Below, piece by piece: positions 560-12,458 of a stretch of 64,000 bases of DNA. The stretch's first letter is position 1. Every line of letters starts with the position of its first letter. Below the pieces are notes generated by a model that worked only from the letters and a program-made list of their open reading frames with translations, had not been told where the DNA came from and searched no databases. The position numbers were made by a program, and so were the translations under genes. The stretch is from Sphingobium indicum BiD32 (GTDB lineage Bacteria; Pseudomonadota; Alphaproteobacteria; Sphingomonadales; Sphingomonadaceae): contig NZ_CAVK010000061.1 of assembly GCF_000382885.1 (NCBI RefSeq), positions 1-64,000 on the forward strand. Reading direction: 5' to 3'.

Positions 560-1266
560 CCTGCCGGGGTGGTCCGCTCACGCCGGTTTCGGTCTCGCCG
601 CCCTGGGCTACGGCGGTCGCCCTTGCGTCTGGTGAGCCGGAACCCGGCTTGGCTCGATCGACGCATTCCCCTCATGCTGGCGCGTTCACCCCAAGGTACC
701 CGGTTTGTATCACGGCATGTACTGCGCCTTGTGCGGCGCTTTCGCTCGTGGGGGCGCCATCGTCGGACGTCTTTGCCTGCCGCCTCGATCCTACTTCATG
801 ACACTGCCGGCCCGGCATTGGGCCGACTTGCGGGCGTACGATGCGATCCGGCTGCGCCAACGTTCCCGTCCGCGACAGCCCGGCATGCCAGATCTCCGCG
901 CAAGAAACGGATTTAGCCGTAATGGCAGTTTCCGGACCTTCTCTCATCCCTGGGAGAGGGGGCGCTGATCCTGGTTCTGTGCCGTTTCGACTGAACGGGA
1001 AGGAGCAGGGGGCGGCGCATCCCGCCCTTCGCCATGCTCAGGACGGGACCGGGGCTCTATTCGCTAAGCCGCGGGTTCGCACGTGCCGCGCGGACCTGCG
1101 GCCAAGCTCACGGAGCCAGGCCTGCGGCCCGTCTCCGCCCATTCGGGTGACGAACCCGCTTGCGGGGGGATCACAGGGAGAGGTTCGTACACCCCTATTC
1201 CTCTCTTGTGTCTGCCTAGTGTGGCATGCGGGGTTGGCGGTCCGTCGAGCATGAGCGGTCCCCCCA
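560..1266. other. intergenic region, no supported gene
   Basis: About 700 bases in which the open frames lack coding character and ribosome-binding sites. Small hairpins are visible (for example around CTCTCATCCCTGGGAGAG near 944-961), but I can assign no function. The region could hold decayed sequence or a promoter for the downstream gene. Confidence 0.4.
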
Positions 1267-1333
1267 ATTTTTCCGCGCGGACGCTGGCGCGACCACTCGG
1301 AAAAATCGGTTCCCCCACTCCCCGCTGGCGCGG
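1267..1333 (+). repeat. leader element, copy 1 (T-rich inverted repeat plus C-rich block)
   Basis: A perfect 9-bp inverted repeat (ATTTTTCCG 1267-1275, CGGAAAAAT 1298-1306) is followed by AAAATCG (1302-1308), a C-rich run and CCGCTGGCGCGG (1322-1333). The same order with nearly the same spacing occurs at 3937-4025 in front of an unrelated gene. The element ends about 120 bases before the start codon at 1457. Confidence 0.6.
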
Positions 1334-1375
1334 CGTTAACCAGGGTCCGGCCGCGGGCCGGCTTCCCGGTTAACG
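1334..1375 (+). repeat. imperfect 42-bp palindrome in the leader of the DUF2493 gene
   Basis: The outer arms CGTTAACC (1334-1341) and GGTTAACG (1368-1375) pair perfectly and the GC-rich centre pairs with a few mismatches. It sits where the second leader copy has a smaller hairpin (GCCGGCAAGCCGGC near 4027). It could be an operator or a leader RNA hairpin. Confidence 0.5.
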
Positions 1376-1456
1376 TGCCGGACCTCCCTGACCGCCGCAT
1401 GCCGTGAGCAAGACCTCATCGCGTGGATGAGACATCCAAAAGCCATGGAGGCTCAC

Positions 1457-2458
1457 ATGACCAAGTCTTTTGCAAACTTTGCCGACCTCGCCAGCTTCAT
1501 AGCCAGCGAAACCGGAACCGACGGACGCAGCCCGGCTTACGAGCACGCTTTCATCGAACATGACGAGCGCGCGAAGCTCTCGCCCGTCGACGAGACCGAG
1601 CAGCTTGAAATGCCCGATCCGGAGCAAGCCCGAGCCGCTGTCGAGATGGTGATGGCGACGCTGTTCGACGTGTTCCGCGACACTCGCCTGGAAGCTTTCG
1701 CCAGCGACCTCGCCTGGGGCTTCGTCAACAGCTTCCATGTCGTCGCGAAGCGCATCAGTGACCGCGAAGACGATGCCGCCAAGGAGCTTGGCGATCTCGC
1801 CCGCAGCTTCGACCCGAGCGAGATCTACGCCTCGCAACTCGAAGAAGCGCAACTGCTTTGCCAGACGCTCCAGGGATGCCGCGATGCGATGGAATGCATG
1901 CGCGATCACGCCGCCGAGGTTTATCGCGTGGAGACCGGACGGCCCTATTCGCCGACGCGCGGCAGCCGGGTTTCCAACGGCGTCACTGCCTCGATGATCG
2001 ACGCCCGCGACTATCTTGCCGCGAGGGGGCGGGAGCGGCGCGAGCAGTTCACGCCCGAAGGCCCTGTCGTCGCATTCTCGGGCGGACAGGCCTGGGAAGA
2101 TCACGAGCTGCTCTGGAAGGGCCTGGACATGATCAAGGGCCGCATTCCGGAAATGATCCTCGCCACGACCGCACAAACCAAAGGCTGCGATGCCATCGCG
2201 CAAGCCTGGGCGGCAGCACGCGGCGTCAAGGTCATCATGTTCCGCCTGGATCGCCGTCTCGGAGCCAAGGCCGCCTTCGTCCGCAACGACCGCTTACTCG
2301 CCCTGAAGCCGGTGGAGGCCGTCGTCTGCGAAGGCTCTGGCATCCAGATGAATCTCGCCCAGAAGCTGCGGCAGGCGGGCGTTCCGCTCCACGTCGTGAA
2401 GCTCGACCAGCAGCGCAACACGGCTCCGGGCACCCAGCGCATGGCGCACAGGGCCTGA
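1457..2458 (+). CDS. DUF2493 (YspA-like, SLOG-type) domain protein
   Basis: A protein of 333 residues. The N-terminal two thirds is acidic and helical with no recognised fold. The C-terminal part (about residues 203-320) begins with a glycine-rich turn after a hydrophobic strand (VVAFSGGQAW), alternates strands and helices, and has a second such turn (AVVCEGSGI), as in the Rossmann-like nucleotide-binding DUF2493/SLOG family. The start at 1457 is chosen because GGAGG lies at 1447-1451; two in-frame ATGs upstream lack this. The family is common on alphaproteobacterial plasmids next to transfer genes; its substrate is unknown. A terminator and a T-arm-like hairpin follow directly. Confidence 0.75.
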   Translation: MTKSFANFADLASFIASETGTDGRSPAYEHAFIEHDERAKLSPVDETEQLEMPDPEQARAAVEMVMATLFDVFRDTRLEAFASDLAWGFVNSFHVVAKRISDREDDAAKELGDLARSFDPSEIYASQLEEAQLLCQTLQGCRDAMECMRDHAAEVYRVETGRPYSPTRGSRVSNGVTASMIDARDYLAARGRERREQFTPEGPVVAFSGGQAWEDHELLWKGLDMIKGRIPEMILATTAQTKGCDAIAQAWAAARGVKVIMFRLDRRLGAKAAFVRNDRLLALKPVEAVVCEGSGIQMNLAQKLRQAGVPLHVVKLDQQRNTAPGTQRMAHRA

Positions 2459-2473
2459 CCTGAGTGCATCGAC

Positions 2474-2514
2474 GAGAGGCTCCGGCACCCGCCGGGGCCT
2501 CTCCTCTCCTTTTT
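2474..2514 (+). terminator. rho-independent terminator after the DUF2493 gene
   Basis: A 12-bp stem with one G-T pair (2475-2486 with 2491-2502), a 4-nt loop and a T run at 2510-2514. It begins 16 bases after the stop codon. Confidence 0.85.
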
Positions 2515-2525
2515 GCGCGGCGCAC

Positions 2526-2560
2526 GCGGTGGGCGGGGGCATCGAACCCCCGCCCACCGC
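2526..2560. repeat. 14-bp hairpin with CATCGAA loop, copy 1 (T-arm-like on the minus strand)
   Basis: The arms 2526-2539 and 2547-2560 are perfectly complementary over 14 bases and enclose CATCGAA (2540-2546). Read on the minus strand the top of the hairpin is GGGGGTTCGATGCCCCC, which has the loop pattern of a tRNA T-arm on a much longer stem. A second copy with the same loop and a mostly different stem is at 4392-4426. It lies 12 bases beyond the terminator, so it is unlikely to be the terminator itself. Confidence 0.8.
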
Positions 2561-2654
2561 CGAGGCTGCTGGCCCGCGACCCGGCCGGTGCCGCCGCATC
2601 GGGAGCCGAGGAAAGAGGGGGAACAAAAGCGGCTTGCCCAAGGAGTAAAAGACC

Positions 2655-3221
2655 ATGTCCGTCCTCTTCCGCATCGCTGTTCCCGCCGATGATGCAACCG
2701 ATCCGCACGCAGTCATCACCGCCCGCCAGCTCGCCGGCTTCCGTCGCTTTCTGCGCGCCGAGGGCGAGCGGATCGGCGTCGACCTCATGGAGCCCGACGA
2801 ATATCTTGGCGACAGCTTCGAGGTGCGTGTCTGTCCTCTGGCGCTCGCCGCGGTGACGGGCCAGTTTGACCATGATCCAGCCATCATCACCGTGGTCGAA
2901 GAGGCCCAGTTCAGGGGCCGCCGCATCGCCATCCATCATAGCGCCGGCGATGCGGAAATCCGGATGCGGGTTGCCCTGACATCGGACTGCGGTCTCGAGC
3001 TCGATCTTGCCTATGGCAATGCCTATGCGTTGCTCGAAGCACTCGACATCGAGGCCGAAAGCGTCGGCGATATCGCTCTTGCAACCCTCCGCGAGCGGCT
3101 CGCCGATCCGGCGACGCCGGCCCGCGCGGCCGAACGACGCGTCGAGCACTATCTTCCCCGACTGGAGCGCCTCGTTGCCAGCGCCAGTGTCAGCGACGAG
3201 GCGCGGCTCGTCTGGGCTTGA
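2655..3221 (+). CDS. unknown protein, 188 residues
   Basis: It begins with a strong ribosome-binding site (AAGGAG at 2639-2644) before ATG 2655. The protein is acidic, mixes strands and helices, and has no signal peptide or membrane segment. I recognise no motif. It lies in the string of small plasmid-backbone genes upstream of the transfer genes. Codon use matches the neighbours, which supports a real gene. Confidence 0.65.
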   Translation: MSVLFRIAVPADDATDPHAVITARQLAGFRRFLRAEGERIGVDLMEPDEYLGDSFEVRVCPLALAAVTGQFDHDPAIITVVEEAQFRGRRIAIHHSAGDAEIRMRVALTSDCGLELDLAYGNAYALLEALDIEAESVGDIALATLRERLADPATPARAAERRVEHYLPRLERLVASASVSDEARLVWA

Positions 3222-3246
3222 TCCCAAGACTAAGGACCGCAAATAG

Positions 3247-3438
3247 TCAGCAGGACCCTTGCGCCGGCATCTTTGTTGCGGACCCGAGCACGGTGTCGAT
3301 CGCCATCTGCAGATGGCCTGCCGCGATGTCCTCACCCAGCGTGTCGAGCAGTGGCATGACCTTTCGCATGAGCACGATCGCGAGCGCACGCGTGGCTGTC
3401 TGGTCAGCCTTTGGCCGGTTGTCGACGTCCTCGAGCAT
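3247..3438 (-). CDS. unknown small protein, 63 residues
   Basis: The minus-strand ATG at 3438 is preceded by GGAGGGATGA, a good ribosome-binding site. The protein is predicted to be helical (RALAIVLMRKVMPLLDTLGE) without cysteine pairs or a membrane segment. It converges with the gene ending at 3221, with 25 bases between the stops. No family is recognised; a small DNA-binding or antitoxin-like role is possible but not shown. Confidence 0.5.
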   Translation of the reverse strand: MLEDVDNRPKADQTATRALAIVLMRKVMPLLDTLGEDIAAGHLQMAIDTVLGSATKMPAQGSC

Positions 3439-3502
3439 TCATCCCTCCGGAGCGTGTCGTGATGCCCATGCAGGGGTTCGGGGGACATGCTGAACCCGGA
3501 AA

Positions 3503-3525
3503 CTCCCGCGCGCTGGGCGCGGGAG
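3503..3525. repeat. 8-bp GC-rich hairpin
   Basis: CTCCCGCG (3503-3510) pairs with CGCGGGAG (3518-3525) around a 7-nt loop. It directly adjoins the left arm of the 16-bp inverted repeat at 3525-3540. Confidence 0.6.
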
Positions 3526-3656
3526 CCGGGGCTCGAAAACACAGTCGAAACAGTGCGCCTACGCTTTTAGTACCGGGGTACCTGGACATATGCGCAGGCA
3601 CCCCGGCGTGAACCTCACACCGAGTGCCGTTATCGACAGGGTTTTCGAGCCCCGGC
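3525..3656. repeat. 132-bp element bounded by perfect 16-bp inverted repeats
   Basis: GCCGGGGCTCGAAAAC (3525-3540) recurs as its exact reverse complement at 3641-3656. Between them are further palindromes, including GTACCGGGGTAC and a CCGGGGT/ACCCCGG pair. The element has no coding frame of note. Possible readings are a recombination or replication site, a small non-autonomous mobile element or a structured RNA. No clear target-site duplication is visible. Confidence 0.55.
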
Positions 3657-3936
3657 GCCACCGTTTTCGCAGCGCGCTTCAGCCCTATCACAGCCATCCA
3701 TCCGCACCAAGCCGAACAGGATACGCAACATTATCGCGGGCACCCGATATAGTGGTGAAGACTGCCGAAGGGGCGGCGATTGGCGACAGGGACGCCTCGC
3801 TCGCGTGCCGCGCAGACCCTTCGGTCCGCACGCCGCTACGCCTCGCGTCGGACGCATCCCCGAGAGGAAAAATCTCTCACAGCCTTCCCATGTTGTCGGG
3901 CGAACGAGGCCGCCTCAAGGACGGCGGGGCCCCACC
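3657..3936. other. intergenic leader region upstream of the 74-residue gene
   Basis: No supported gene. A possible promoter is the TATAGT hexamer near 3750, but the -35 side is not convincing. Confidence 0.3.
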
Positions 3937-4025
3937 ATTTTCTTCGGCGGGTCGAGCGGTGGTGCCAAGCAATCGGCGGTGGTGGCCGCCGAAGAAAATC
4001 GTGACCCCCGCCGCCGCTGACGCGG
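3937..4025 (+). repeat. leader element, copy 2 (T-rich inverted repeat plus C-rich block)
   Basis: A perfect 14-bp inverted repeat (ATTTTCTTCGGCGG 3937-3950, CCGCCGAAGAAAAT 3986-3999) is followed by AAAATCG (3995-4001), a C-rich run and CCGCTGACGCGG (4014-4025). The order and spacing copy 1267-1333. The gene start at 4110 follows with GGAGGCCAACATG, against GGAGGCTCACATG in the first copy. Confidence 0.6.
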
Positions 4026-4109
4026 TCGCCGGCAAGCCGGCGATCCTTGACCCGGCCTCGCCCGCCCGACGCGCCTGACCCTGTCATTCAAGACAGCCAG
4101 GAGGCCAAC

Positions 4110-4334
4110 ATGCAGACCATCACGAACCCCGCCGCCGCCGATCACGCAGCCTACTTCGCCGCCGTCGCATGCGCCGAGCGCCGAGCGCTCCACAGCTACT
4201 TCGACCAGCACGTCATCCAGGACGGTGAGCTTGGCTATCTCGCCATCGACGAAGGTGATTATGGCGCGCTGACGCCGGGCATGATCGACCGGATCGTCTA
4301 CACCGCGCAGGGCGGGGTGCTCGACGAATATTGA
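4110..4334 (+). CDS. unknown small protein, 74 residues
   Basis: The start at 4110 is set by GGAGG at 4100-4104; a longer frame to 4047 has no such signal. The protein begins with an Ala-rich helix (DHAAYFAAVACAERRALHSY) and ends in an acidic stretch (GGVLDEY). It has no recognised domain. It shares leader and trailer elements with the DUF2493 gene but not protein sequence. Confidence 0.6.
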   Translation: MQTITNPAAADHAAYFAAVACAERRALHSYFDQHVIQDGELGYLAIDEGDYGALTPGMIDRIVYTAQGGVLDEY

Positions 4335-4343
4335 ACGACAGAA

Positions 4344-4376
4344 GGGAGGGGCGCGGCGTCGCCTCTCCCCTTTTTT
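4344..4376 (+). terminator. rho-independent terminator
   Basis: Arms 4344-4353 and 4360-4369 pair over 10 positions with one G-T, followed by six T at 4371-4376. It begins 10 bases after the stop codon. Confidence 0.9.
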
Positions 4377-4391
4377 GTTGTGAGGATGGAG

Positions 4392-4426
4392 ACGGACATG
4401 GGGGGCATCGAACCCCCCATGTCCGT
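4392..4426. repeat. 14-bp hairpin with CATCGAA loop, copy 2 (T-arm-like on the minus strand)
   Basis: The arms 4392-4405 and 4413-4426 are perfectly complementary and enclose CATCGAA (4406-4412). Stem length and loop equal those at 2526-2560, but the lower stem differs in both arms together (compensatory change). It lies 15 bases past the terminator of the plus-strand gene and 29 bases past the stop of the minus-strand gene. Confidence 0.8.
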
Positions 4427-4455
4427 ACCGCGAGTTGCCTCGCGGCGGGGGCTTG

Positions 4456-4674
4456 TCACGCAGTCAGGCGTTTTTCCACTTCCTCGATTCCGAGGCTGCG
4501 AATGCGCGCCAGCAGTGCATTCAACCGCTTTGCGTCCAGCTTGAGCAGACCAGCCCTTTCGACAGCCTGAACCGCTGCATCGCGTTCCTTTTCTTCCAAC
4601 CGTTGCCGCCGCTCTTCGAGCTTGCGGGCGTCCTCCGCTAACGCTGCTCTTTCCTGTTCCAATGTGCGTGCCAT
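4456..4674 (-). CDS. small coiled-coil protein, 72 residues
   Basis: The first 40 residues are almost all charged and Leu/Ala (EQERAALAEDARKLEERRQR), a typical coiled coil. The C-terminal part (LDAKRLNALLARIRSLGIE) resembles a short helical DNA-binding tail seen in small plasmid proteins. A weak AAGAGG lies upstream of ATG 4674. Its function is unknown; a role as a relaxosome accessory or plasmid-maintenance protein is a guess from position only. Confidence 0.55.
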   Translation of the reverse strand: MARTLEQERAALAEDARKLEERRQRLEEKERDAAVQAVERAGLLKLDAKRLNALLARIRSLGIEEVEKRLTA

Positions 4675-5187
4675 GAAGGGCCTCTTGGTTCACGCTGATC
4701 GGGCTATGAACCTGTTCGTTATAAGGCAGGTTTGCCGCACTGGAAGCGCAAGTTCGCGTATCGGTCATCAACGGCCCAGCTATCGTTGCCTGAGGACCGC
4801 CTTCCGTCTGCTCCGCCGCCCGAGCGATCGCTTCACGCTCAATCGCGCTCGAAAGCTTCCGTCCACTGGACGGCCTGGCGCCCCGCCGGCGGCGATATCC
4901 CATCCATATCGACCGCGTCACATGACGCCCCTGGGACTGGATCAGCCCTGGTGCAGAGAAGCACACCGAACGCACCAAGGTGCATGGGGTTCTGAAACAA
5001 TTCCAGATACTTACAGCGATCTGATTGCGTATGCGGCTGTGGGACAGCTTTTCGGGGCCTCCGAGACCCGCGGATTTCTGCCATTCCAGCGTGTTACGCG
5101 AGAACACATGGTTTCAATGCCACCCGATTTTCTTGCCCTGGTCTTCGAACTCATCTATAAATAGCAACGGTTTCTGAGACCCCGCCA
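4675..5187. other. 513-bp non-coding region upstream of the transfer genes (possible oriT)
   Basis: No frame here has coding character. It contains inverted repeats (AACCTG 4709-4714 with CAGGTT 4727-4732; CCGTCCACTGGACGG near 4859-4873). MobF relaxases usually act on an oriT close to their own operon, so this gap is the natural place to look. I cannot identify a nic site by eye. Confidence 0.3.
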
Positions 5188-5205
5188 GCCTCCCTGCTAG
5201 GAGGC
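5188..5205 (+). promoter_or_regulatory. hairpin that sequesters a ribosome-binding site
   Basis: GCCTCC (5188-5193) and GGAGGC (5200-5205) form a 6-bp stem over CTGCTA. GGAGG at 5200-5204 is the ribosome-binding site of the TTG-started gene at 5211. In mRNA this stem would hide the site and could limit expression of the coupling-protein operon. Confidence 0.5.
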
Positions 5206-5210
5206 TTGGT

Positions 5211-5501
5211 TTGACTTCCCCCTACAAGCATTGCTCGATCCGCCTCGACCGCGGCAAATATGATCGCGTCGTAGCGCTCGCCGCGGAGCGCGGATGCACG
5301 CCGTCCGACCTGCTCCGGCTGGCCGTCGACGGGTTCCTTTCGGCGGGCCAGTTGCTGAGCTCCAGCCATCGCCGGATCGCCCGCATCAGCGAGTTTCAGC
5401 AGCTCGCCCTCGATATCATCATCCGCGAGCAGTTTCCCGAATATCGCGACCGCATCATCGCGGAAACCGACAAGCGCCTGGAGCAATATCATGGCGCGTG
5501 A
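5211..5501 (+). CDS. ribbon-helix-helix-like accessory protein
   Basis: A protein of 96 residues starting at TTG, supported by GGAGG six bases upstream. The N-terminus has the pattern of a ribbon-helix-helix protein: a short polar strand (KHCSIRLDR), a helix (KYDRVVALAAERG), then TPSDLLRLAVDGF. The rest is helical. Such proteins often bind DNA next to relaxase and coupling-protein genes and help form the relaxosome. It overlaps the coupling-protein start by 11 bases, so the two are probably translated together. Confidence 0.6.
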   Translation: MTSPYKHCSIRLDRGKYDRVVALAAERGCTPSDLLRLAVDGFLSAGQLLSSSHRRIARISEFQQLALDIIIREQFPEYRDRIIAETDKRLEQYHGA

Positions 5502-7800
5502 GGACATCCGCAGCGACGGCCGACCCGTCCCTTTGACCCACCACAGCGCGCGCGGCCGCGTGCAGCGCAATGCCGGCAATTTCACCCGCGGCAGCCAGCT
5601 TCTCACCCACGAGATGATGATGTGGTTCTCGGGCGCCAAGCTGCCCTTCATGCTCTGGTTCTTCGCCTTCGTTGGCGCCTGGTTCATCATCATGTCGCTC
5701 AAGCTCGACGAGCACGGTTTCCAGCTCGTCTGCATGAAGATCTATGCGACGCTCTGGAACTGGATCGACCTCAATCCGAACAAGCGCGTCAACGTCACGC
5801 TGCCAAGCGGCGAGATCATGCGGACCGTGATGCAGGCGGTCCCCTATATCCCCGAGGTCATCAAGGCGTGGTCCGTGGCGATGCGCGGTCTCCTGGGTGC
5901 CTTTCTCATCTCGATCTTCATCACCATTCCCGTGGCCATATGGTTCGTGGACCTGTCCCACCGGCGCGGTCGTTCGATCCTTCAGGAACGACACGAGCGC
6001 GGCGCCATGCTGGTCGACCGCAGCGTGCTCCTTACCGAGATCAACGAACACAACCGCGCGAAGTTCGAAGAGGAAGCCGCCGAGTTCCTTCCTGGCATGT
6101 CCTCGCGGCAAGTCCTCGCGCTGCCGTTTCGCGCGCGGAAGGAAGCCGGCATCCATCATCCCTACACACTTGCCGGGATCCCGTTCCCGCATCGCACCGA
6201 GCAATCCCACGTCATGCTCATTGGCACGACCGGCTCGGGCAAGACGACCGAGCTCAGGAGTCTCGTCACCCAGATGCGCGAGCGCCAGGACACGGCCGTC
6301 ATCTTTGATCTCACCGGCGCATATGTCGAAGCCTTCTACGATCCCTCACGCGACACGATCCTCAATCCCATGGACCAGCGCTGCCCGGCCTGGTCGATCT
6401 TCAACGACTGCCGCACGCACAGCGAGTTCACCGCCGCCGCCGCAGCCTTGATCCCGTCGGATGGCGGCTCTTCCGAACCCTTCTGGGCGCTGGCCGCGCG
6501 CACCCTCTTCATCGAGATGTGCGTCCGGTTGCAGGAGCGTGGCCAGACGTCCAACCTTGCCCTCTCCGAGAACCTGATGACGGCGGACCTGAAGCGCGTT
6601 CACCGTTTCCTCGCCAACACCATCGCCGATCCGCTGACCGCTCCGGAAGCTGCGCGCATGGCGGAATCGATCCGCGCCGTCTTCAACACCAATGCGCAGG
6701 TGCTGCGCTTCCTTCCAGACGAGGGCGAACCCTTCTCGATCCGCGACTGGATCACGCGGGACAAGAAGCCCGGATCGATCCTGTTCGTCACATCGAGCTA
6801 TGTCGATCTGCCGATGAACCGGGCGCTGCTCACGCTGTGGATGGATCTTGCGATCAACCGACTGATGACCTTGCCGCGCACCCGTTCGCTGCGCACCTGG
6901 TTCATGTTCGACGAGCTCGGCGCACTGCATCGTCTGCCGGCGATCGAGAATGGCCTCCAGACGGCGCGCGCGTTCGGCGGCGCCATGATCCTCGGCATCC
7001 ACAGCTTCGAGAAGCTGGTCGAGGTCTATGGCGAACAGGGAGGCCGAAATCTCGCCTCGCTCGCCCGCTCCAAACTCATCCTCGCGACCGCAGACCTCGA
7101 CACCGCCGAGCAGTGCGCACGATACATCGGCAACCGCGAAGTCCGTCAGATGGATGAAGCCTATTCCTATGGCTACAACAACACCCGCGACGCCTCGACG
7201 CTGACACCGCGCAAACAGGTCGAGCCGCTCGTCATTGCCGACGACATCACCAACCTGCCCTCGATGCACGGCTTCGTGAAATTCCCCGACGGCTTCCCGG
7301 CTGCGCGGATCCTGCTCGAGTGGAAGGACTATCCACAGATCGCCCAGGGCTTCGTCCAAAGGCCCGATGTCGGACCGGTGCGATCAAGGCGCGGAGAGGA
7401 GGTGTTCGAGGAGGATGAGGCGGGGGAAGCCGGCGGACGGGACGGCGCAAACCAGGTCGTGGAGGAGGTGTCCGAAACCGGCAATGTCGCGAAGGATCTC
7501 GCAGCGCGCATCCTCTCGGCCGAGGTCGAGGAGGAGACCGAGGCAACGGCCGAGAGGGCGGGACAGCGCGCCGATGATCGCGGTGACCAGCCCGCCCCGC
7601 AGACCCACGCGGCCGACCGTGCACAGGCCGCGCGTTCGCCCGGCGAGGAGCAGACCGTCTCCGGCCGCGACCGCGATGATCGGCGCGATGGTCGCCACGC
7701 GCCAACGGCTGGCCCCCAGGTCGAGGATCAGACGCTTGCAGAGTTGCGCCAGGATTTCTCATCGGGTCGCGACCATGACGGCATGGACATGGGGATCTGA
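5491..7800 (+). CDS. traD: TraD/TrwB-type conjugative coupling protein
   Basis: A protein of 769 residues. Two membrane segments lie at about 51-70 and 132-153, followed by a cytosolic ATPase. The Walker A motif GTTGSGKT is at 245-252; the Walker B region reads TWFMFDELGAL with a conserved post-Walker stretch (LQTARAFGGAMILGIHS). These are features of VirD4-family type IV coupling proteins, hexameric ATPases that hand relaxase-bound DNA to the secretion channel. The last 150 residues are acidic and low-complexity, probably a binding tail. Its stop overlaps the relaxase start (TGATG), the usual traD-traI order. No VirB/Tra channel genes are in the window. Confidence 0.92.
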   Translation: MAREDIRSDGRPVPLTHHSARGRVQRNAGNFTRGSQLLTHEMMMWFSGAKLPFMLWFFAFVGAWFIIMSLKLDEHGFQLVCMKIYATLWNWIDLNPNKRVNVTLPSGEIMRTVMQAVPYIPEVIKAWSVAMRGLLGAFLISIFITIPVAIWFVDLSHRRGRSILQERHERGAMLVDRSVLLTEINEHNRAKFEEEAAEFLPGMSSRQVLALPFRARKEAGIHHPYTLAGIPFPHRTEQSHVMLIGTTGSGKTTELRSLVTQMRERQDTAVIFDLTGAYVEAFYDPSRDTILNPMDQRCPAWSIFNDCRTHSEFTAAAAALIPSDGGSSEPFWALAARTLFIEMCVRLQERGQTSNLALSENLMTADLKRVHRFLANTIADPLTAPEAARMAESIRAVFNTNAQVLRFLPDEGEPFSIRDWITRDKKPGSILFVTSSYVDLPMNRALLTLWMDLAINRLMTLPRTRSLRTWFMFDELGALHRLPAIENGLQTARAFGGAMILGIHSFEKLVEVYGEQGGRNLASLARSKLILATADLDTAEQCARYIGNREVRQMDEAYSYGYNNTRDASTLTPRKQVEPLVIADDITNLPSMHGFVKFPDGFPAARILLEWKDYPQIAQGFVQRPDVGPVRSRRGEEVFEEDEAGEAGGRDGANQVVEEVSETGNVAKDLAARILSAEVEEETEATAERAGQRADDRGDQPAPQTHAADRAQAARSPGEEQTVSGRDRDDRRDGRHAPTAGPQVEDQTLAELRQDFSSGRDHDGMDMGI

Positions 7801-10800
7801 TGCTCTCGGTCGCCGGCGTCCGCTCCGCTTCCGGTGCCGCGAACTATTTCGCGAAGGACGACTATTACACGGTCGAGGGTTCGTCCGAGATCAGCGCTTG
7901 GGGAGGGGAGGGGGCTGACGCGATCGGGCTTGCCGGCGAGGTGTCCAAGGACGCCTTCGAAGGCGTTCTGAACGGTATCCTGCCGAGCGGCGAAGCCGTC
8001 GCCCAGGTCGAAAACCGGCGCGCTGGCTATGATCTCACCTTCTCCATGCCGAAGTCCGCCTCGGTCATGGCCTATGTCGCCGACGACAAGCGCGTGCTCG
8101 GCGCCAACATGGCCGCGGTCAAGGCCACTATGGCCTGGGTCGAAAAGAACCTCGCCGAAGGGCGGCGCGACGTCGAAGGCCGCAAGGTTCCGGTCCAGAC
8201 CGGCAATCTCGTCTACGCCCTCTTCCAGCACGATACGAGCCGGGCGCTCGACCCGCAGGCTCATATCCACGCGGTCATCGCCAACCTGACGCGCATGCCG
8301 GACGGCAAATGGCAGGCGCTCCATGCCGACAAGATCTGGAGCCACAACAGCATCATCGGCTCGATCTATCATGCGTACCTGCGTTCCGAACTGGAGCGGA
8401 TCGGCTACCAGATCGACCTGAAAGGCAAGCACGGCACCTTCGAAATTACCGGCGTGCCCAAAGCAGTGATCGAGGAATATAGTCAGCGGCGCGAGGAGAT
8501 CCTCGATCGCGCGACGAAGCTCGGCATCAAGTCGCCCGAAGGCCTGCGAGAAATCACCAAGCGCTCGCGTGATCCCAAGCTCGACGTGGAGGATCGCGCT
8601 GCGCTCAAACAGGACTGGATCGACCGCGCGGCGGCACTCGGCTTCGACGGAAAGGATCTCGCCGCCGCGGCAGAGGCGCGTGCGGGACTGGCGCCGCCCG
8701 AAGGTGCCCTCGAACGCGGCTACCGGGCAATCGCGGATGCCATTGATGGTGCCCGGACAAGGCTCGGCAGCTTGGCCCGCCCTCGCGATCCCCTTGTCGA
8801 CAATGCTCTTGTCCGTGCCGTCAAATCGCCCGGCGAAGCGCGCGCGCAGCTCGCGGTCGCATCGGCGGTGCGGATCCTGTCGGAGCGCGAAGCGGCCTGG
8901 CCGGTCCATCTGCTCTCCAAGACAGCGATCGATCTCGGACTCAAGGGTGTCACCGTCGACATGATCGAACGGCGGATCGACCGGTTGGTCCAGAACCGCC
9001 AGCTCATACCCGGCGTTGCGACGGCAGCGGACAGAACCGGCCGGATGGTGACGACACAGGAGGCCCTGCGCACCGAAGAGAAAATTCTTGGCGCCGTCGA
9101 AGAGGGGAAGAGCAAGGCCGAGCCGCTGCTACCGCATGCAGATGCGCCCCAGCGGTTGCAGGATGCCGCGACGCGCGCCCTCAATCCCGGCCAGCTGGCC
9201 GCCGCGACGATGATCCTCTCCTCGGCTGATCGCACCGTGTCGGTCCAGGGTGTCGCCGGCGCCGGTAAATCGACCATGTTGCAGGCGGTCGCGCGCGTGG
9301 CGGAAGCCGAAGGCCGGACTGTCACCGGCCTCGCCTTCCAGAACAAGATGGTGGCAGACCTTGCCGAGGGCGCGGGTATCAAGGCCCAGACGATTGCCTC
9401 CTTCGTGCTCGCCAATGAACGTTTCATCGCTGAGCGCGACACGCCTCGCTATCAAGAGGCCCGCGAAAAGTTCGGCGGCACCATGGTCATCGTGGACGAG
9501 ACCTCGATGGTGTCGTCCAGCGATATGCTGAAGCTGCATCAGATCAGCAGCGCGCTTGGGCTCGACAAACTTGTGCTGGTCGGCGACCGCCAGCAGCTAT
9601 CCTCGATCGATGCCGGCAAGGCCTTCGCCATGATCCAGGCGGGCGGCGGTACCCTGGCGCGTATGGACCAGAATATCCGCCAACGGACCGACAAGCTCCG
9701 TACCGTCGCGGCTCTCGCCAACGTCGGCAGGGCGAGCGCGGCGATGAAGGTGCTCGGGGACCGCGTCGTCGAGACGGCGGAACCGGCGGCTGCCGCGGCC
9801 GATATGTGGCTCGCGCTTTCGGAGCCGGAGCGTGGGGTGACTGCCGTCTTCGCCTCGGGCCGCGACGCGCGCGCCGTCATCAATCAGCGCATCCAGGACG
9901 GCCTCGTCGCTGAAGGCGGCGTCAAGGGCGAGGCTATTCATCTGACGGTCTACGAGCGCGTCAACACGACGCGCGAGGAGCTGCGCTACGCCTCGACCTA
10001 TCGGGCTGGCCAAACACTCGAGGTCGGGAGGGGCGGCGCGCAGGACGTCGGTCTCGCCGGCGGACGTTATGATGTGCTGAAGGTCCATGCGGGCGGTAAG
10101 GTCGAACTGGCCGACGGACGTCGCAAGATCCGGTTCGATCCCCAGAAACTCTCACCGACCGAGCAGCGTGATCGGCTACAGCTCTCCGAAAAGAAGACGC
10201 TCCAGCTGCGCGAAGGCGATCGTATCCGCTGGACCGCCAACGACAAGGAGCGGGGCCTTCACAACGCGGCTCTCGCGCGGGTCCTAGCCGTGGATGCGTC
10301 CGGCGTGACGGTTGAGACTGCAGACAAGGGCCGGCTGACGCTAGGGCTCGGTGATCCCATGCTGTCCCGCCTCGACCTTGCCTACAGCCTCAACATGCAC
10401 ATGGCGCAAGGAATCACCACCGACAAGGCGATCACGGTCATGTCGGCGCATGAGCGCAACCTCTCGAACCAGCGCCTTTTCAACGTCGGCGTGACCCGCG
10501 TGCGCGACGAGCTCACGATAATGGTCGACGATCGGGAGAAACTCGAGCGCCAGCTCGACATGAACCCGGGTAACAAGACCTCCGCGCTGGAGACGCTGGG
10601 TTGGCTCGACATCGACGGCAGGAAGGGCCCCAGCGCCCAGCCGCGCGAGAAATTCGATCCCGGACCAATCGATGGCATCGACCTTTCGGATCTCCCACCG
10701 CTACCGAGCGACTTGCCGCCCCTGCCGACCGGTCCAGCCACGGGCCCGGCAGCGAAGGATCCGAAAGCACCGCCTGATCTGAAGCCCGAACGGGCCGATC

Positions 10801-10844
10801 CGCTGCCGCCGCTTCCCGAGCGCAGCTTGGGACTCGATTTGTGA
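7800..10844 (+). CDS. traI: MobF relaxase-helicase (TrwC/TraI type)
   Basis: A protein of 1014 residues, close to TrwC (about 970). The relaxase domain covers roughly 1-290: candidate catalytic tyrosines Y16, Y22 and Y23 near the N-terminus, and the metal-binding triad H144, H155 and H157 in FQHDTSRALDPQAHIHAV, with TrwC spacing. The helicase begins near 450 with Walker A GVAGAGKS (484-491) and Walker B VDETSM (D566, E567). The enzyme nicks oriT, stays bound to the 5' end and unwinds the strand for transfer. The C-terminus is proline-rich and low-complexity. It is translated directly after traD. Confidence 0.93.
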   Translation: MLSVAGVRSASGAANYFAKDDYYTVEGSSEISAWGGEGADAIGLAGEVSKDAFEGVLNGILPSGEAVAQVENRRAGYDLTFSMPKSASVMAYVADDKRVLGANMAAVKATMAWVEKNLAEGRRDVEGRKVPVQTGNLVYALFQHDTSRALDPQAHIHAVIANLTRMPDGKWQALHADKIWSHNSIIGSIYHAYLRSELERIGYQIDLKGKHGTFEITGVPKAVIEEYSQRREEILDRATKLGIKSPEGLREITKRSRDPKLDVEDRAALKQDWIDRAAALGFDGKDLAAAAEARAGLAPPEGALERGYRAIADAIDGARTRLGSLARPRDPLVDNALVRAVKSPGEARAQLAVASAVRILSEREAAWPVHLLSKTAIDLGLKGVTVDMIERRIDRLVQNRQLIPGVATAADRTGRMVTTQEALRTEEKILGAVEEGKSKAEPLLPHADAPQRLQDAATRALNPGQLAAATMILSSADRTVSVQGVAGAGKSTMLQAVARVAEAEGRTVTGLAFQNKMVADLAEGAGIKAQTIASFVLANERFIAERDTPRYQEAREKFGGTMVIVDETSMVSSSDMLKLHQISSALGLDKLVLVGDRQQLSSIDAGKAFAMIQAGGGTLARMDQNIRQRTDKLRTVAALANVGRASAAMKVLGDRVVETAEPAAAAADMWLALSEPERGVTAVFASGRDARAVINQRIQDGLVAEGGVKGEAIHLTVYERVNTTREELRYASTYRAGQTLEVGRGGAQDVGLAGGRYDVLKVHAGGKVELADGRRKIRFDPQKLSPTEQRDRLQLSEKKTLQLREGDRIRWTANDKERGLHNAALARVLAVDASGVTVETADKGRLTLGLGDPMLSRLDLAYSLNMHMAQGITTDKAITVMSAHERNLSNQRLFNVGVTRVRDELTIMVDDREKLERQLDMNPGNKTSALETLGWLDIDGRKGPSAQPREKFDPGPIDGIDLSDLPPLPSDLPPLPTGPATGPAAKDPKAPPDLKPERADPLPPLPERSLGLDL

Positions 10845-10892
10845 CGTGACTGCCGCCGGCGTGGTGCCGGGGCGAAATGAAGGAGATGAACG

Positions 10893-11093
10893 ATGGGTTG
10901 GGAATTCGAAGAAGCCGGAAAGTTCGGCAGCGAACGGGCGGCCGAAGACTATGCCAAGCGCAACAATATCGATCCGCGAGACGTGCAAATCACCCGCAAG
11001 GGCGAGGAGGTCGAGCTCAATATCCGCCGGTCGGCGCTCGATGGCCGCAATCTGCGTGACAATGGCGAGGGCCGCCGGGATGGCTGGCGCTGA
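10893..11093 (+). CDS. unknown small protein, 66 residues
   Basis: A strong AAGGAGATGAACG precedes ATG 10893. The protein is charged and soluble (GWEFEEAGKFGSERAAEDYA) with no recognised domain. It follows traI after 48 bases and probably belongs to the same transcript. Codon use is like its neighbours. Confidence 0.6.
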   Translation: MGWEFEEAGKFGSERAAEDYAKRNNIDPRDVQITRKGEEVELNIRRSALDGRNLRDNGEGRRDGWR

Positions 11094-11198
11094 TGACCTT
11101 CATCGTTTCGGCCTTCGCGATACTGGTGCACACGTCCGATCTGCTGGGAGAACAGGGTCCACAGCGGGTCTCATGGGCGTACGGATACTGAAAAAAGA

Positions 11199-11330
11199 TC
11201 AGTGGACGCTAAGGGCCCATATTGCCTGGGTGCCCAGCGTTATGGACAGCAACACCAGCCCGACCAAGGTGCGAAGCTGCGATTGTGAGAGGCGGCGTTT
11301 ATGCGCGTCCGGTGCTGAGAGAATGTACAT
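11199..11330 (-). CDS. small single-pass membrane protein, 43 residues
   Basis: An ORF below the usual size limit, running from ATG 11330 to TGA 11199. After a basic stretch (HKRRLSQSQLR) comes one hydrophobic helix (TLVGLVLLSITLGTQAIWAL), a plausible inner-membrane protein with its basic end in the cytosol. An AAAGGG lies about 10 bases before the start. A competing 32-residue frame exists on the plus strand at 11093-11191. The rest of the 11,094-11,447 gap holds nothing I can support. Confidence 0.4.
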   Translation of the reverse strand: MYILSAPDAHKRRLSQSQLRTLVGLVLLSITLGTQAIWALSVH

Positions 11331-11447
11331 GCGTTACTGCGCCCTTTCTCGATTTCCGCAGCTTCGGCTGTTCGCGCGTGTGGACCTATCCGCAATACTA
11401 CGCAGTGAGTTGTCCAAAGGTCGTGGTGCCGGACAGTCCGTTGATGG

Positions 11448-12458
11448 TCAGGCCAGAAGCTCCGTGCCAATCTGATGGATGGCGCGCCCGCTTTTTTCGA
11501 AGCTGGAGATGTTGCGGATCGTGGTCTCCGCGATGGCCCAGAGCGCTTCGCGTGTAAAAAACCCCTGATGGCCTGTGATCAAGACATTGGGGAATGTCAA
11601 AAGACGAGCGAAGACGTCATCCTGCAGCATGCTTTCCGACAAGTCCCTGAAAAAGAGGTCTCCCTCCTCCTCATAGACATCGAGCCCCAAGGCCCCGATG
11701 CGCTCTGACTTCAGGCCGGCAATGACGGCTCTCGTATCCACGACAGCTCCCCGGCTCGTGTTGATCAGCATGGTTCCCTTGCGGATCAGCTGAAGCGCGT
11801 CGTCGTTGATCAGATGGTGCGTTTGGGGTGTCAGGGGACAATGAATGGTTATGATGTCCGACTGTTGCAGCAGCTCTGCGAGCGGGACATATTCTATGCC
11901 CAACTGCCGGAGTTTTGCATCGGGGGCCGGATCGAAAGCCAAAAGCCGACAACCGAACCCTTGAAGGATGCGCGCCACCGCCGCGCCAATCCTGCCAGTT
12001 CCAACGATGCCAACGGTTCGCGCGCTGAGATTGAACCCGAGCAAGCCATCCAGAGCGAAGTTGCCTTCGCGAACCCGGACATAGGCCCGGTGCAACTTTC
12101 GGTTGAGTGAGAGGATCAGCGCGACAGTGTGCTCGGCGATCGCTTCCGGCGAATAGGCCGGGACACGCGCGACCGCGATCCCAAGCGCTTCGGCCGCTTT
12201 GAGGTCGACGTGGTTGAAGCCAGCGCTTCGCAACGCAACCAATCGCGTTCCATGACCACGAAGCGCCGCGAGCACTGTGTGATCGAGGCGGTCATTGACG
12301 AAGGCGCAGATCGCGTCAGCTCCTGCGGCTAACGCTACGGTCTGTTCTGAAAGGCCAGCTTCGAGATATCGCAATATATGCGCATGACCGTCTGCCGCAT
12401 TTGCCAGATCGAGGAACTCTCGATCATAACTCCGGGTGCTGAATACCGCGACCTCCAC
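11448..12458 (-). CDS. ldhA: D-lactate dehydrogenase (D-2-hydroxyacid dehydrogenase family)
   Basis: A protein of 336 residues, the usual length. It carries the NAD-binding motif GIVGTGRIG, the catalytic Arg region (RSAGFNHVDL, NTSRGAVVD), and the Asp/Glu-rich and final His elements DVYEEEGDLFF and LITGHQGF, which are typical of fermentative LdhA. It reduces pyruvate to D-lactate with NADH. The start is GTG at 12458, behind AGGAGAAG. It is transcribed away from fixLJ, so the two may share a control region. A fermentative enzyme beside an oxygen sensor fits a low-oxygen response. Confidence 0.88.
   Translation of the reverse strand: MEVAVFSTRSYDREFLDLANAADGHAHILRYLEAGLSEQTVALAAGADAICAFVNDRLDHTVLAALRGHGTRLVALRSAGFNHVDLKAAEALGIAVARVPAYSPEAIAEHTVALILSLNRKLHRAYVRVREGNFALDGLLGFNLSARTVGIVGTGRIGAAVARILQGFGCRLLAFDPAPDAKLRQLGIEYVPLAELLQQSDIITIHCPLTPQTHHLINDDALQLIRKGTMLINTSRGAVVDTRAVIAGLKSERIGALGLDVYEEEGDLFFRDLSESMLQDDVFARLLTFPNVLITGHQGFFTREALWAIAETTIRNISSFEKSGRAIHQIGTELLA

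Follow-up and report, generated by a model that had tools for sequence, protein, structure and literature searches.

Introduction

How a recipient cell first handles the single-stranded DNA of a mobile element is known for few elements. Passages of the report on the single-strand origin (sso) of ICEBs1 state that virtually nothing was known before it for any integrative and conjugative element, and describe sso elements such as sso1 as orientation-specific stem-loops on single-stranded element DNA (PMC4595007). For the F plasmid, parts of another report place Frpo1 and Frpo2 in the leading region, and the Frpo or ssi (single-strand initiation) promoters of F-like plasmids appear there as stem-loops on the transferred strand, or T-strand (PMC9849209). 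Here we analyzed two hairpins with identical loops in the first 64,000 nucleotides of contig NZ_CAVK010000061.1 of Sphingobium indicum BiD32 (assembly GCF_000382885.1), a stretch termed the window. Very probably, these are DNA hairpins of the T-strand of a MOBF conjugative element. Their strand polarity and place beside the predicted origin of transfer (oriT) point to single-stranded plasmid DNA, a reading absent from the preliminary description of this DNA.

With the sso and ssi elements, as excerpts of that work present them, the hairpins share stem-loop DNA, a single orientation and a setting in single-stranded element DNA (PMC4595007). Unlike those elements, each is one short hairpin with a fixed loop, a free stem and a fixed leading-region place; the likeness to sso1 is drawn without sequence comparison. 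Frpo elements are much longer than these hairpins.

Results and Discussion

Hairpins with a constant loop and covarying stems

The two hairpins of the window are as follows.

2526..2560, minus strand: hairpin 1 (site 1), 14-bp stem; plus-strand loop CATCGAA, minus-strand loop TTCGATG (TCGAT with a closing T·G)
4392..4426, minus strand: hairpin 2 (site 2), 14-bp stem; loop identical to that of hairpin 1

The arms (2526-2539 with 2547-2560 and 4392-4405 with 4413-4426) are 14 nt each and 100% complementary, in agreement with the preliminary description. Its statement that the top five pairs are alike and the remaining pairs differ in both arms also holds for the two hairpins. Folded as minus-strand DNA, hairpin 1 reached -21.6 kcal/mol (z -7.7) and hairpin 2 -18.3 kcal/mol (z -6.8), and on either strand both lie 6-8 standard deviations below shuffles. 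The loop heptamer by itself is not enriched in the window (10 copies, shuffle mean 15.1), so the signal is the hairpin and not the loop alone.

Further copies were found in the same genome and beyond it. The 15-mer core GGGGCATCGAACCCC has four copies in the strain's own genome, two of them outside the window (C30 and C187), and none in a backward control; allowing up to two mismatches gives 27 matches, as against 3 for the control. In both copies outside the window the stem extends over 13-14 positions, with a single mismatch and a different sequence. Within the family (Sphingomonadaceae), the exact core was found in 16 of 199 genomes at 21 places, the backward pattern in none, and at least 9 of 12 pairs form at 17 of these places but not at the other four (L021, L022, L026, L027). 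A search with a covariance model, as had been proposed, returned 4 matches in the own genome and, at E<=0.001, a match in 62 of 397 family genomes. The matching genomes of the order (17 of 196) were all of the same family, and 3 of 385 genomes of the class matched, the own genome included. The sequences behind this model (R1) and behind A1 had been preselected: each has a GGG-loop-CCC core and forms 9 or more of its 12 pairs.

After removal of 20 rows that read the same hairpins on the opposite strand, 149 match rows gave 129 places in 92 loci and 87 distinct hairpins; several loci are duplicates drawn from two collections (e.g. L129 and L228). The plus-strand loops of the 87 are CATCGAG (46), CATCGAA (37), CGTCGAG (2), CATTGAG (1) and CATCGAC (1). 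The first base of the minus-strand loop is accordingly C in 49, T in 37 and G in one, and the loop is better described as TCGAT with a closing C-G or T·G. This bears on the earlier proposal of a tRNA T-arm or tRNA-modification mimic. In the T-loop pattern, T54 and A58 pair, and the 7-nt loop TTCGATG of the window's minus strand resembles it; 37 of the 87 hairpins, both window hairpins included, carry the T. In contrast to a T-arm, C replaces T54 in 49 of 87 and the stems reach 14 bp. Together with the failure of ARAGORN to find a tRNA within the window, which agrees with the earlier statement that the hairpins are not tRNAs, this led us to reject the mimic.

The stems change in matched pairs. 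Among 36 distinct hairpins, preselected by the core and by 9 or more pairs out of 12, 91.7% of cells are paired and 135 cells are double changes, and none of 500 shuffles matched either value. Double changes fall in 11 of 14 pairs, with a covariation score reached by 0 of 500 shuffles.

Orthologous sites were compared in 17 loci. A search with the site-1 stretch had matched 30 records, of which 15 were chosen, and one with the site-2 stretch 63, of which 2 were chosen. In sequence the window is similar to conjugative plasmids from Sphingobium, Novosphingobium, Sphingopyxis and others. Site 1 is present in all 17 plasmid loci, 15 of which were chosen by a search with the site-1 stretch itself; site 2 is present in 14 of the 15 loci chosen by site 1 and in both chosen by site 2. 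In the locus lacking it (L139), neither TraD nor the 74-aa gene was matched within the 12 kb. All orthologous loops are CATCGA[A/G], apart from the CGTCGAG of L132 at site 2. Pairing is 100% at site 2, where 7 of 15 pairs have changes on both sides, and 92.8% at site 1, where 4 of 16 do; each covariation score was reached by 0 of 500 shuffles. The proposal that pairing was kept while the sequence changed is thus borne out in the orthologous sites and in the wider set, and the further copies with covarying stems argue against a chance similarity. Comparison of these copies demonstrates, at the level of sequence, a family with a near-fixed loop C-ATCGA-R on stems that differ by paired changes.

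Position and orientation relative to conjugation genes

The predicted oriT and the genes around the hairpins are listed below.

4961..4984, minus strand: predicted oriT nic site; inverted repeat GCACC-TT-GGTGC, then GTTCGGTGT^GC, with the nick between 4963 and 4962
1427..2458, plus strand: DUF2493 / YAcAr (SLOG family) gene before hairpin 1 (Pfam PF10686)
2655..3221, plus strand: 188-aa leading-region protein, without Pfam or NCBIfam match
4110..4334, plus strand: 74-aa leading-region protein, without Pfam or NCBIfam match
4456..4674, minus strand: 72-aa protein of a convergent gene that lies between hairpin 2 and oriT, without Pfam or NCBIfam match
5491..7800, plus strand: type IV coupling protein TraD/TrwB (Pfam PF10412, NCBIfam)
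7800..10844, plus strand: MobF relaxase-helicase TraI/TrwC (Pfam PF08751, NCBIfam)

By sequence comparison, the candidate nic GTTCGGTGT^GC resembles those of R388 (cgcaccGAAAggtgcgTATTGTCT^ATAG) and F (GCGTGGGGTGT^GG). R388 carries trwA-trwB-trwC on one side of oriT and stb and ssb on the other, and the window has a like plan. The F/R388-like motif GCGTNNGGTGTG has 49 copies in the 92 loci, always to the right of the hairpin on the strand that reads YTCGATG, and 0 copies on the other strand or to the left of the hairpin in those loci. From the nic resemblance, the R388-like gene plan and the strand of this motif, we infer that the minus strand of the window would be the transferred one, cut at about 4962.

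The MOBF relaxase hairpin at nic of R388 and F is likewise a covarying inverted repeat on the T-strand, and the window oriT has one too, but the hairpins described here lie about 0.5-7 kb away from it in the leading region. As a MOBF relaxase site they were rejected, since the nic motif is not a few bases 3' of them; candidate nic matches are at least 212 bases from the hairpin start. Separately, in the oriT of lineages A and B (described below), the inverted repeat 5' of the predicted nic changes in matched pairs, as judged by eye, and GCGTNNGGTGT^G is mostly constant.

The orientation of the hairpins toward the transfer (tra) genes is constant. TraD was found at 95 of the 129 places, to the right of the hairpin and on the same strand in 95 of 95. 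MobF was found at 91, on the same strand in 89, and DUF2493 at 106, on the same strand in all. The tra lineages are divergent, with TraD identity to that of the window from about 30% to 100%, and the orientation to TraD holds across systems at only about 30-50%. The hairpin follows DUF2493 at one site and the 74-aa gene at the other in lineage A, precedes a 74-aa homologue in lineage B, lies between an SSB gene (shown for L195) and the 74-aa homologue in lineage C, and precedes DUF2493 in lineage D. Neighborhood and orientation are therefore kept, and the exact gene slot is not. Lineage C and D loci are mostly without a close nic match. The preliminary description had given the order as stop codon, terminator, hairpin. 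This order stands for lineages A and B and fails in C and D, where no terminator is visible before the hairpins; a terminator as obligatory partner was accordingly dismissed.

Nine complete sphingomonad plasmids (2.94 Mb), chosen among those already known to carry hairpins, were searched with R1 at E<=0.1. Four are MOBF by PLSDB typing, and in the rest a mobF gene is annotated next to the site. Two hairpins were found per leading region and none elsewhere in the 2.94 Mb; pSWIT01 has two leading regions and four hairpins. Across the 397 family genomes, 128 carry TrwC, which is present in 48 of the 62 with a hairpin and 80 of the 335 without (odds ratio 10.9, p=1.5e-15, a nominal value as the genomes are related).

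Strand polarity of the stems

G·T can be retained in a stem on the folding strand and is then read as A·C on the complement. Among the 72 distinct hairpins linked to tra genes, which form 17 clusters, G·T events numbered 20 on the T-strand and 3 on the complement (p=0.0005, 17 clusters). In 71 of the 72, the outer loop bases form C-G or T·G on the T-strand, and DNA folding is better on that strand in 60 of the 72 and worse in 11.

Two neighboring structures served as an internal control.

2474..2503, plus strand: rho-independent terminator 3' of the DUF2493 gene (terminator scan; plus-strand G·T polarity kept in orthologues)
4344..4369, plus strand: rho-independent terminator 3' of the 74-aa gene (terminator scan; plus-strand G·T polarity kept in orthologues)

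A scan of positions 1200-5500 for a stem followed by a T run called only these two sites (2474 and 4344; shuffle mean 2.9). As this count is not above shuffles, their identity as terminators rests on conservation in the orthologues. The hairpins were not called by the scan, which is in line with the earlier view that they are not terminators. With one strand-neutral procedure applied to the orthologous loci, the ratio of G·T to A·C on the plus strand was 36:0 in the adjacent terminators and 1:7 in the hairpins. The terminators fold as plus-strand RNA, and the opposite polarity of the hairpins argues that they are kept for the other strand. A plus-strand mRNA element was rejected on this polarity.

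Taken together, the alignments reveal a strand-polarized hairpin family that lies just inside the leading region, has a constant orientation to the tra genes and pairs better on one strand. The strand that reads YTCGATG is the predicted T-strand and the mismatch polarity agrees with it, so the hairpin is probably a single-stranded DNA element and not an mRNA element or tRNA mimic.

Possible function

We tentatively favor the reading that the hairpins are single-strand initiation or recognition signals (sso/ssi-like) in the leading region of MOBF conjugative elements. The T-strand would be nicked at about 4962, and about 0.54 kb of it would enter the recipient ahead of hairpin 2 and about 2.4 kb ahead of hairpin 1. 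Each hairpin could then fold on the incoming single strand, where the TCGAT loop on its G/C-capped stem may be recognized by a protein or polymerase and may start strand-to-duplex conversion. The single orientation expected of a single-strand origin was found at 95 of 95 places with TraD and in the polarity of 20 to 3, with the T-strand assigned by nic resemblance. The element was not recognized in any published description within the part of the literature that the text search reached.

Of the uses suggested earlier, a protein-binding site survives in part, in that recognition by a protein or polymerase is still likely. The protein need not lead to priming. The T-strand hairpin could be a landing site for a protein such as the co-resident DUF2493/SLOG product, which would protect or mark the incoming single-stranded DNA. 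DUF2493 accompanies the hairpin at 106 of 129 places, never on the opposite strand, and does so in lineages A to D; a fixed loop on a free stem is the expected trace of a loop-reading protein. PF10686 is described as a SLOG family, and SLOG proteins are kin to DprA. However, more genomes carry PF10686 (161 of 397) than the hairpin (62 of 397), and dispersed hairpin copies lie away from DUF2493. We regard this alternative as rather unlikely.

A single-strand promoter of the Frpo type, in which the folded T-strand recruits RNA polymerase for the leading genes before the second strand is made, would suit hairpin 1, which lies 94 bases before a plus-strand gene, and lineages C and D, where a plus-strand gene lies about 0.3-0.4 kb to the right of the hairpin. 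The portions of two Frpo reports that we draw on place those elements in leading regions and have their stem-loops rebuild -35 and -10 boxes (PMC11541004, PMC9849209); in contrast, the hairpin stems are G+C-rich. A scan of the linear sequence with an E. coli-type consensus found no sigma-70-like site, with its -35 and -10 boxes, at either hairpin. Hairpin 2 faces oriT with no plus-strand gene after it on that side, and an inverted repeat at 3913-4017 looks a better candidate, which makes a promoter role for the hairpins quite improbable.

This inverted repeat lies before the 74-aa gene and is a second conserved structure. Its arms, TTTTCTTCGGC and GCCGAAGAAAA, are spaced 38-39 nt apart and have a mismatched extension. 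The left arm is exact in 11 of 18 loci and both arms in 10; the structure was seen in the window and in L127, L128, L129, L131, L134, L135, L137, L138, L141 and L142. It is a candidate single-strand promoter.

Several observations weigh against initiation or recognition signals on the T-strand as we propose them. In the set of 36 hairpins, two of the five covariation measures fell within shuffles (double-change pairs 37/500, pair types 347/500). No hairpin match was found in 80 of the 128 TrwC genomes, and hence many MOBF systems lack a scorable hairpin. Among 20 TrwC loci without a listed match that were inspected, 6 of them in genomes having a hairpin elsewhere, four have a TCGAT-loop hairpin below the cut-off (L410, L411, L413, L421), three a hairpin with a GATCG or GTTCG loop (L417, L418, L423) and one (L412) a stem with another loop at the homologous place; the other 12 have no such hairpin among the best stems listed. 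By the query genes used, 17 of the 129 places have no tra or leading gene nearby. Twelve of these are in dispersed palindromes (class E), and the other five are L145, L150, L156, L190 and L152. Class E shows no strand polarity (2 and 3 events) and lies away from tra genes, so the signal is not exclusive to conjugation. The comparison of G·A with C·T leans toward the T-strand, but its event count is not significant (15 to 8, p=0.21), the raw count being 45 to 9. Until the strand is circular, little would be primed from an initiation site that lies 0.5 kb from its 5' end. Lastly, a minus-strand RNA would give the same polarity.

Such an RNA element, on an antisense transcript or in the 3' untranslated region of the 72-aa gene, would draw on the polarity that favors the minus strand and on the end of that gene about 30 bases before hairpin 2. 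Yet the hairpin slots between plus-strand genes vary by lineage, so that separate antisense transcripts would be needed, and no Rfam family matched within the window at the gathering threshold. We find this reading very unlikely.

The dispersed copies raise the further alternative of REP-like repetitive hairpins kept by chance in these plasmids. Some sphingomonads do carry same-loop copies inside dispersed palindromes: genome G028 has 24 matches at E<=0.1, and the 20 stretches examined are hairpins inside two kinds of palindrome. The leading-region copies differ from these in being orthologous and oriented. Across genera they persist as two per leading region, in one orientation, a pattern that random insertion would not yield, and chance retention therefore seems highly improbable. 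In the class E stretches of G028 the loop is constant and the stems differ. The palindromes (L269-L288 of G028, L199, L207, L214) are of a gggaggggttggggtggg type and a ctctccccttgtgggagag type, each with a same-loop hairpin on its own stem.

A wider possibility may be put forward with more reserve. The hairpins might represent a new class of single-strand signal, with a 5-base loop and a freely evolving stem, on the T-strand of divergent MOBF elements. A Sphingomonadaceae host factor that also reads the dispersed copies might recognize it, and incoming single-stranded DNA would be recognized, primed or protected in its first kilobases. In any case, evolutionary signal alone has pointed to an element that is conserved, strand-polarized and easy to mutate, and whose place in many sphingomonad conjugative elements can be predicted. 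The question is open to direct testing in laboratory Sphingobium matings. The strand-polarity test, which compares G·T with A·C in stems and uses terminators as control, could reveal such elements elsewhere.

Flanking structures and additional observations

One further structure adjoins hairpin 2.

4428..4445, minus strand: accessory hairpin CCGCGAG-TTGC-CTCGCGG, on the 5' side of hairpin 2 on the minus strand

The flanks of the site-2 group fold with a mean z of -2.0, and 14 of 23 are below -1.5. A tandem accessory hairpin as a general feature was rejected, since the mean z is only -1.0 in lineage B, +0.4 in lineage C and -0.3 in the rest.

Among the TrwC loci, the strong stem of L412 (Tpos 3389) has an unrelated loop and lies at an equal distance from TrwC as the hairpins of L411 and L413 (Tpos 3391 and 3388).

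In viral contigs, 89 stretches carry the 15-mer, mostly with short stems. The viral contigs L097, L100 and L075 share a common element, a 7-bp ccggggCATCGAAccccgg hairpin with conserved flanks. Long-stemmed CATCGAG hairpins, followed by g(c/t)tgcc(g/a)cgg, occur in L289, L355, L356 and L378. Many Rhodobacteraceae are among the matches listed for long-stemmed CATCGAG loci; among the matches listed, at least 7 of 10 outer pairs form in 33 of 83 scored places, and the tra queries match six long-stem CATCGAG loci only, the sphingomonad-like ones. L328, an Acidobacteria metagenome-assembled genome, has four consecutive CATCGAR hairpins with differing stems within 0.65 kb (88-728).

In L138, one reverse transcriptase/maturase gene is present in two copies (2225-4090 and 9853-11718), the second about 0.5 kb after site 2. 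The leading region of the window also contains a long inverted repeat at 3525-3656, GCCGGGGCTCGAAAAC ... GTTTTCGAGCCCCGGC, with arms 100 nt apart, and its right arm is found again in L127 at 13191.

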